The notes below the pieces were generated by a model. It was not told the origin of the DNA and made no database searches. It worked only from the letters and a program-made list of their open reading frames with translations. Of a stretch of DNA of 64,000 bases, positions 3,812 through 5,597 are shown piece after piece. The first letter of the stretch is position 1; each line of letters begins with the position of its first letter. Position numbers and translations under genes: made by a program. The DNA is from Streptomyces sp. JB150 (lineage in GTDB: Bacteria > Actinomycetota > Actinomycetes > Streptomycetales > Streptomycetaceae), in contig NZ_CP049780.1 of the NCBI RefSeq assembly GCF_011193355.1, positions 1,719,582 to 1,783,581 on the forward strand, in the 5' to 3' direction.

Positions 3812-4735
3812 ATGCGAAACGAGCCCGTGGTCCAGGTCCAGGCCCTGGTGAAGCGGTACGGCGACAAGACCGCGGTGGACGGCCTCGACCTGGTGGCCCG
3901 GGCCGGCGTCACCGCCGTCCTCGGGCCCAACGGGGCGGGCAAGACGACCACGGTCGAGACCTGCGAGGGGTACCGGAAGCCGGACTCCGGCACGGTGCGT
4001 GTCCTGGGCCTCGACCCGGTCCGCCAGTCCCGCGAGCTGCGCCCGCGCATCGGCGTGATGCTCCAGTCCGGCGGCGTCTACTCCGGCGCGCGGGCCGACG
4101 AGATGCTGCGCCACGTGGCCCGGCTGCACGCCCACCCCCTCGACGTGGACGCCCTCATCGAACGGCTCGGCCTCGGCTCGTGCGGCCGCACGGCGTACCG
4201 GCGGCTGTCCGGCGGGCAGCAGCAGCGGCTCGCCCTCGCGATGGCCGTCGTGGGCCGCCCCGAGCTGGTCTTCCTCGACGAACCGACCGCCGGACTCGAC
4301 CCGCAGGCCCGCCGCGCCACCTGGGACCTGGTCCGCGACCTGCGCGCCGACGGCGTCTCCGTCATCCTCACCACCCACTACATGGACGAGGCCGAACAGC
4401 TCGCCGACGACGTCGCGATCATCGACGCGGGCAAGGTCATCGCCCAGGGCTCGCCCGAGGAGCTGTGCCGCGGCGGCGCCGAGAACACCCTGCGCTTCAC
4501 CGGCCGCCCCGGCCTCGACGTCGGCTCGCTGCTCAAGGCGCTGCCCGCGGACTGCGCGGCCGCCGAGCTGACGCCCGGCTCCTACCGGGTCGTCGGCAAG
4601 GTCGATCCGCAACTGCTGGCGACGGTGACCTCCTGGTGCGCGCAGCACGGGGTGATGCCGGACCGGATCTCCGTCGAACGGCACACCCTCGAAGACGTTT
4701 TTTTGGAGCTGACCGGCAAGGAGCTGCGCTCGTGA
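3812..4735 (+). CDS. ABC exporter ATP-binding protein (DrrA-like)
   Basis: This 307-aa ATPase energises the membrane protein encoded next. Walker A is GPNGAGKTT (residues 38-46), the signature LSGGQQQR starts near 132, and Walker B LVFLDEPTAGLD is near 152, followed by the H-loop TTHYMDEAEQ. The C-terminal EDVFLELTGKEL motif is typical of DrrA-type drug or lipid exporters. The end of the gene is abnormal: codons GTT-TTT-TTG form a run of seven T just before the C-terminal motif, and the last 32 bp are repeated 92 bp downstream at the start of the permease gene. A -1 shift at the run would add residues and end on the second copy of the same C-terminus. Confidence 0.88.
   Translation: MRNEPVVQVQALVKRYGDKTAVDGLDLVARAGVTAVLGPNGAGKTTTVETCEGYRKPDSGTVRVLGLDPVRQSRELRPRIGVMLQSGGVYSGARADEMLRHVARLHAHPLDVDALIERLGLGSCGRTAYRRLSGGQQQRLALAMAVVGRPELVFLDEPTAGLDPQARRATWDLVRDLRADGVSVILTTHYMDEAEQLADDVAIIDAGKVIAQGSPEELCRGGAENTLRFTGRPGLDVGSLLKALPADCAAAELTPGSYRVVGKVDPQLLATVTSWCAQHGVMPDRISVERHTLEDVFLELTGKELRS
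4699..4705 (+). other. possible -1 slippery heptamer (T_TTT_TTG)
   Basis: The zero-frame codons GTT TTT TTG create the heptamer T TTT TTG, of the X_XXY_YYZ type used in -1 frameshifting. The -1 frame stays open to the TGA at 4825-4827. A 7-bp GC hairpin (CCGGGGG-ttgt-CCCCCGG, 4766-4783) follows, but 60 nt away, farther than the usual stimulator. Transcript slippage adding one T would give the same frame. Function is inferred only. Confidence 0.35.
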
Positions 4736-4827
4736 ACGGACCCCGCGAGAAGACCGGCCGGGGGTCCGGGGGTTGTCCCCCGGAAAAGCACAGCCTGGAG
4801 CTGACCGGCAAGGAGCTGCGCTCGTGA
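4704..4827 (+). repeat. 92-bp tandem duplication at the ATPase/permease junction
   Basis: A 32-bp block beginning TGGAGCTGACCGGCAAGG occurs at 4704-4735 and again, identical, at 4796-4827, with 60 bp of unrelated sequence between (4736-4795). In the second copy the sequence ends ...TCGTGACC, where TGA overlaps the GTG start of the permease. The ancestral arrangement was therefore probably a GTGA overlap that has been split by the insertion. Confidence 0.9.
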
Positions 4828-5597
4828 CCACGTCCACCGGGACCTACGCCCCGAAGCCCGGCGCCGCGCCGCTCCCCCGCATGATCGCCGCGCAGGCCGC
4901 GCTGGAGACGCGGATGCTCCTGCGCAACGGCGAGCAGCTGCTGCTGACGGTGATCATCCCGACCCTGCTGCTCGTCCTGTTCGGCACCGTCGACATCGTC
5001 GACACCGGCGAGGGGAAGGCCGTCGACTTCCTCGCCCCCGGCATCCTGGCGCTCGCCGTGATGTCGACCGCGTTCACCGGACAGGCCATCGCCACCGGCT
5101 TCGAACGCCGCTACGGCGTGCTGAAGCGGCTGGCGTCCTCGCCGCTGCCGCGCTGGGGCCTGATGACCGCCAAGACGGTGTCCGTGCTGGTCACCGAGGT
5201 GCTCCAGGTGCTCCTGGTGACGGCGATCGCGTTCGCGCTGGGCTGGTCGCCGCACGGCAGCCCGCTCGCCGTCCTGCTGCTGCTCGTCCTCGGCACGGCC
5301 GCGTTCTCCGGGCTGGGGCTGCTGATGGCGGGCACGCTGAAGGCGGAGGCGACGCTGGCCGCCGCCAACCTGGTGTTCCTGCTGCTGCTCGTCGGCGGCG
5401 GGGTGATCGTGCCGCTCGACAAGTTCCCGCCGGCCGCGCAGGACGCCCTCGCGCTGCTGCCCATCTCCGCACTGTCGGACGGGCTGCGCGACGTCCTGCA
5501 GCACGGCGCGGGCATGCCCTGGGGGAACCTGGGGATCCTCGCGGTATGGGCGGCCGCGGGCCTGGCGGCGGCAGGGAAGCTGTTCCGCTGGGAGTGA
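4824..5597 (+). CDS. ABC-2 type transporter permease
   Basis: The 257-aa integral membrane protein is the partner of the upstream DrrA-like ATPase. It has the ABC-2 layout with about six hydrophobic segments, including LLLTVIIPTLLLVLFGTV, ILALAVMSTAFTGQAIA, VLLLLVLGTAAFSGLGLLMAG and NLVFLLLLVGGGVIVPL, and the family FERRYGVLKRLASSPLPR loop. The GTG at 4824 is used because it overlaps the TGA of the duplicated 3' block and begins the expected N-terminus; a start at 4773 would add residues translated from the inserted sequence. The exported substrate is unknown. Confidence 0.85.
   Translation: MTTSTGTYAPKPGAAPLPRMIAAQAALETRMLLRNGEQLLLTVIIPTLLLVLFGTVDIVDTGEGKAVDFLAPGILALAVMSTAFTGQAIATGFERRYGVLKRLASSPLPRWGLMTAKTVSVLVTEVLQVLLVTAIAFALGWSPHGSPLAVLLLLVLGTAAFSGLGLLMAGTLKAEATLAAANLVFLLLLVGGGVIVPLDKFPPAAQDALALLPISALSDGLRDVLQHGAGMPWGNLGILAVWAAAGLAAAGKLFRWE

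Follow-up and report, generated by a model that had tools for sequence, protein, structure and literature searches.

How can ribosomes pass from one gene to the next when additional DNA lies between a stop codon and the start codon that would otherwise overlap it? This question is raised by a junction in the window (the whole stretch of 64,000 nucleotides analysed here) from Streptomyces sp. JB150 (G000), in which the genes for two subunits of an ABC-2 exporter – a DrrA-like ATPase and a DrrB-like permease – are separated by a tandem duplication that begins within the first gene. Coupling of drrA and drrB is known from S. peucetius. The reading that we favor, and hold with good confidence, is that the junction contains a single unit of a repeat dispersed in Streptomyces, and that a mini-ORF relays ribosomes from the ATPase to the permease.

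Organization of the junction

The ATPase gene ends in a 32-bp sequence (4704-4735) that is found again at 4796-4827, an offset of 92 bp that leaves 60 bp between the copies; if the preceding base (T in one, C in the other) is counted, the copies extend to 33 bp and differ at one position (4703-4735 vs. 4795-4827). In both copies an AAGGAG motif stands eight bases 5' of a GTG that overlaps a TGA. The mini-ORF starts on the ATPase stop codon and stops on the permease start codon, overlaps its neighbors by four nucleotides at both ends, and occupies the -1 frame of the ATPase (Table 1). The best NCBIfam match of the ATPase (TIGR01188, drrA) and the TIGR00025 match of the permease both score below the family cut-off.

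The predicted RNA fold of positions 4750-4790 is a strong stem-loop (-19.5 kcal/mol), and near-copies of the core of the palindromic element are present at two further places in the 7.3-Mb genome. A known structured RNA was rejected, since a search of 4600-4950 against Rfam gave no match up to E = 1; a terminator on the gene strand was likewise rejected, the one match being on the other strand.

Table 1. Features of the ATPase-permease junction in G000 (window coordinates).
Feature	Position	Strand	Basis or occurrence
Gene for the DrrA-like ABC-2 exporter ATPase, 307 aa, C-terminus LELTGKELRS and stop	3812..4735	+	ORF; PF00005; TIGR01188 drrA
T7 run in GTT-TTT-TTG, its last bases shared with repeat copy 1	4698..4704	+	sequence; 1 of 131 genomes
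Single tandem unit X-S-E, 92 bp	4703..4794	+	relatives have one to three
X copy 1, gene end with AAGGAG (4718-4723) and GTGA overlap (4732-4735)	4703..4735	+	
Relay mini-ORF, 31 codons, VNGPREKTGRGSGGCPPEKHSLELTGKELRS and stop	4732..4827	+	in-frame, same-position counterparts in relatives
Spacer S of 20 nt, evolving fast and free of codon-position constraint	4736..4755	+	
Palindromic element E, dispersed, 39 nt, ends CACAGC	4756..4794	+	
X copy 2, AAGGAG (4810-4815) and GTGA overlap (4824-4827)	4795..4827	+	
Gene for the DrrB-like ABC-2 exporter permease, 257 aa, GTG at 4824	4824..5597	+	PF12698, PF01061, TIGR00025

Ribosomes finishing the ATPase would, on the relay reading, reinitiate on the mini-ORF at the GTG at 4732, read through the hairpin, and then reinitiate on the permease. 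We propose that the insertion thereby does not uncouple the two subunits. A study in Haloferax and E. coli (PMC10666635) reports that gaps of ~20 nt almost abolish coupling, and that the final 15 nt of an upstream gene are enough for it; by analogy, a 60-nt gap would plausibly uncouple the two genes, and 33 bp copied from the gene end would plausibly restore the coupling.

The junction in related genomes

Most relatives have no unit. Across the genus, a hand count found at least 56 of 392 genomes with an alignment running from copy 1 across the insert. Junctions were then compared in a set of 93 genomes chosen to be rich in carriers, of which 92 were parsed (G292 was left out). Between ATPase and permease, 57 of the 92 carry mini-ORFs, one to three in tandem, although that of G094 is unrelated in sequence to the element. 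Three units are found in G219 and G381, two in G077, G081, G360, G353, G373 and G372, and three plus a degenerate one in G402. The typical mini-ORF is 96 nt long (55 of 69); four are 93 nt, four are 120 nt, and single cases measure 123, 66, 45, 189, 168 and 54 nt, the last two being from incomplete assemblies with shifted frames (G453 and G302, 55% and 88% complete, respectively). Four genomes (G095, G024, G071 and G208) have the copy 1 start codon in the permease frame, resulting in a fusion, and in the other 31 genomes the genes overlap directly.

Stop/start overlaps leading from the ATPase reach the permease frame in all 92 genomes. In G302 and G453 the permease is reached only via an internal ATG after a shifted start; in G402 one frameshifted mini-ORF runs into the frame of the next unit and still ends on a start codon. 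The Shine-Dalgarno core is present in every first copy (131 of 131) and every last copy (54 of 54).

A separate observation concerns L108 (G208), L011 and L013, where the N-terminus of the permease corresponds to a former mini-ORF or to a shifted reading of copy 2 (MSQAQLGADRQGAA): judged from sequence, these permeases have apparently gained new N-terminal coding sequence born of the repeat.

The T7 run is not required for the -1 frame

The initial annotation described the duplicated gene end with its 60 bp of intervening DNA, the T7 run in GTT-TTT-TTG, and a -1 frame that stays open up to a TGA (4825-4827) overlapping the permease GTG (4824-4826); all of these descriptions are accurate. From them it drew the idea of a -1 slip at T7, programmed or as a rescue, that gives an extended ATPase whose C-terminus is unchanged. 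The sequence does offer T TTT TTG as an in-frame heptamer of slippery type; a slip there is conceivable in G000 and would lead into the frame of the mini-ORF, and thus to the same TGA. However, T7 is unique to G000 among 131 genomes, the longest run elsewhere being T5, and relatives without any slippery run keep the phase as well. The same phase rule is found at tldD/tldE and two further junctions (see below) without a T7 context, copy 1 there being preceded by CATT/CATC, GTTC/CTTC or CTTC. Programmed -1 frameshifting of the dnaX type shares the in-frame heptamer, but here the heptamer is not conserved, the stem is far downstream (some 50-60 nt 3' of it), and the frame already belongs to an ORF that has a start codon: given a GTG and a Shine-Dalgarno motif of the mini-ORF itself, no slip is needed to enter it. 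Slippage is thus a reading to which we give hardly any credence.

Alignment of orthologous junctions confirms that the duplication and its phase recur, but not that the slippery run is conserved. The view that coupling is preserved through the phase of the duplication accordingly survives in part: phase matters and coupling can persist, but slippage as the means of it finds no support. That the phase is a one-in-three coincidence, as the initial annotation also allowed, is unlikely because it recurs over several length variants at this and three other junctions.

The codons around T7 are indeed rare. The phenylalanine codon at the start of copy 1 is TTT in 50 of 131 genomes; of the other phenylalanine codons that these genomes have in the part of the gene just before it, 1 of 279 is TTT. 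Whether the unit is present or not, the Val-Phe-Leu codons at this place are unusually rich in T (TTT in 32 of 57 genomes with it and 18 of 74 without), and they lie right next to the start of the duplication. This cluster of rare codons (GTT/TTT/TTG; window positions 4694-4708) lies ~30 nt 5' of the coupled start and is perhaps an unstructured stretch for ribosome standby.

The frame is kept, the peptide apparently not

Indels are multiples of three or, as judged by eye, compensate one another, as in G103 (+2/-2) and G381 (-1/+1). G247 has lost the palindrome and kept the phase; in G238 the palindrome is scrambled and the frame intact. In four further genomes (G097, G322, G274 and G290; loci L008, L074, L081 and L086) the palindrome's inner G-run has been swapped for another stem, with the outer stem and the reading frame unchanged.

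Read from the sequence, the three frames through X lead to a relay, a fusion and an early stop, respectively: a random change should thus break the chain in about one case in three. Over the four junctions there are ~17 separate length changes, counted by hand with independence judged by eye, and none in the better assemblies is broken (p ~0.001, a rough value that assumes one frame in three breaks). Genomes cannot be counted as events, because they share ancestry.

The mini-ORF peptide matches no Pfam or NCBIfam family, the entropy of the spacer differs little from one codon position to another (1.31, 1.40 and 1.24), and copy 2 of X tolerates replacements such as L to P; for these reasons a coding function of the peptide was rejected. 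The peptide would then be a by-product, and the frame that which selection appears to keep.

A dispersed element with putative fixed ends

The element links three further overlapping gene pairs, and the frame, where it relays, reads ..RGSGG-C/R-PPG-R/K-HS. At a pair that we take, from sequence resemblance, to be tldD/tldE, a relay is present in 32 of 33 loci, with lengths of 90, 87, 99 and 114; L198 and L209 belong to one genome, this junction has more carriers than the 30 loci retrieved for it, and the chain is broken in L234 (G453). All three loci of a pair whose first product ends NIRRLRREVRR have a relay. For the pair ending WLLRRTRRKQGGWA, one of three loci relays, one relays and then fuses, and one fuses.

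A scan for exact matches to the element pattern, with each species represented by one genome, gave 82 stretches, 80 from Streptomyces and one each from Streptosporangium and Streptomonospora. For 80 of the 82 loci (88 copies, 87 testable) the DNA following CACAGC was compared to that upstream: in 64 of the 87 it is a gapless near-copy (score of at least 14, which random anchors reach in 1 of 261 cases), and in the remaining 23 no duplication was found. Thirty of the 64 are, by hand count, the ATPase site described here. A looser set comprises 123 copies, 94 with duplication, but since it includes loci picked for repeats only its list of sites matters. The context of the first copy was compiled over 14 sites (grouped by script, two clusters mended by hand): T is found at -2 in 13, at -3 in 12 and at both in 11, mostly as CTTC, against a background frequency of 1.8% for TT among dinucleotides. 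Some other sites have longer units, of 130-149 bp.

The element is also found at the ends of several genes and at the 3' end of tRNA-Lys. In L204, L240, L271 and L317 it lies 3' of the tRNA-Lys gene and is followed by a repeat of the last 37 bp of the tRNA; L317 has two units. In L189 (G104:C1:7466728-7467258) seven matches to a variant palindrome stand in a row with a period of 82.

A further copy, in L002 (G000, C1:4109831-4109856) and L328-L357, lies between two genes, presumably NUDIX and MarP-like, the second starting VNVLDILLLV. In eight of 30 loci at this site everything between TTC and CAGC is missing, the leader of the second gene with it, within a 3-nt microhomology (CAC). Simple insertion as the origin of copies that have no duplication found no clear support at this one compared site: the left part is old leader sequence, and the comparison therefore reads better as a precise deletion.

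Together, the duplication, the TTC context and the deletion suggest a cut-and-join system with fixed ends, and the element may be mobile; the C or CAC shared by both ends allows microhomology as an alternative route. A more specific model, which we advance tentatively and think somewhat doubtful, is that a single-strand (HUH-like) element has the 39-nt palindrome as its smallest mobile end and carries along all DNA from an upstream CTTC up to the palindrome. Reinsertion at that CTTC would duplicate the upstream gene end and so rebuild whichever overlapping junction or tRNA 3' end is entered: a self-repairing insertion, with the mini-ORF relaying ribosomes.

Gain, loss and selection

The spacers of carriers resemble each other (46% vs. 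31% for shuffled letters; 47 genomes), which favors a unit that is old, has often been lost cleanly and has been exchanged between strains; repeated gain is possible. A unit of this kind might alternatively be a neutral tandem repeat, in which the palindrome provokes duplication and loss, the frame is retained by descent only, and the permease starts de novo. Copy 2 of X has its own Shine-Dalgarno motif, and de novo initiation could thus suffice. The state is in addition very labile: on a tree of 131 ATPase-plus-permease sequences, made by a quick method, unit presence changes at least 38 times, against a shuffled mean of 43.6 (22 of 500 shuffles were as low as 38). Copies within a genome are also closer to each other than copies from different genomes (2.6 vs. 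4.8 differences of 29; none of 5,000 permutations as low; 54 genomes). A neutral repeat is nonetheless at odds with the length variants and compensated indels, which keep relay or fusion at four junctions, L234 excepted, whereas at two sites where the genes are not coupled the unit lengths (137, 138 and 140; 134, 149 and 169; few values) are not tied to one phase. We consider this explanation unlikely.

The palindrome could instead act chiefly on the mRNA, as a stabilizer or attenuator of the kind proposed for REPs, with the mini-ORF serving only to avert harm. The strong stem-loop and the placement of the element at gene ends, at several sites, are as expected of such a role, but the scrambled, swapped and deleted palindromes described above persist with the frame intact, and most relatives lack the unit altogether; we judge a primary role in the mRNA to be quite improbable. 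Under the relay reading, dozens of related species amount to a natural experiment on translational coupling, with four junctions, one to three relays, fusions and clean absences. Ribosome handover through chains of mini-ORFs, and the survival of tiny repeats in tight operons, thereby become testable.

Comparison with known systems

A literature search that covered few subscription journals, and is weak to that extent, returned no account of the element, or of relay repeats that copy the host gene end, in Streptomyces. The four-nucleotide overlaps with an upstream Shine-Dalgarno motif are like those of ATGA/GTGA termination-reinitiation, as PMC6728339 and PMC10666635 present it; in contrast to the usual coupled pairs, the overlap is doubled here and a mini-ORF without family lies between two subunits.

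Short dispersed palindromes, sometimes in tandem arrays, are shared with REPs and BIMEs, with their RAYTs, and with IS200/IS605 elements, and the logic of the cut sites – after the host TTC and after the fixed end of the element – resembles the single-strand transposition of IS608. The consensus of the element begins GGCCGGGGG, however, and does not have the GT(A/G)G head of REPs (PMC2817692); nor do the accessible parts of that paper describe a flanking duplication of gene ends. Y1_Tnp (PF01797) has no match in G000, for which a resident Y1 transposase was thus rejected, or in four of seven other genomes tested, and four of the seven Y1 loci in other genomes (L321-L324) contain no exact element string. 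A transposase may have been lost, or may act in trans.

The closest relatives in kind are the MIRUs of mycobacteria, whose description is said to go back to Supply et al. in 1997. They are generally described as invariant inserted units. According to a 2025 review (PMC12548453), start codons are where they insert, the ORF inside them being coupled with a spacing of -4 and the effect on the gene probably small. MIRUs are interspersed, 40-100 bp long and variable in tandem copy number; the units here are 92 bp, one to three in number, and also contain a small ORF that overlaps the neighboring genes by 4 nt. None of the 82 stretches with the element pattern, from the scan of one genome per species, is from Mycobacterium. 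Unlike that of MIRUs, the coupling end copies the host's own gene end and so differs from site to site, the palindrome being the common part, and units are found at the 3' end of a tRNA and at uncoupled gene ends as well. The Streptomyces element is for this reason – it is not an invariant unit – not filed as a MIRU: rather, it extends the MIRU idea beyond mycobacteria, with a different design in which the host sequence is copied.
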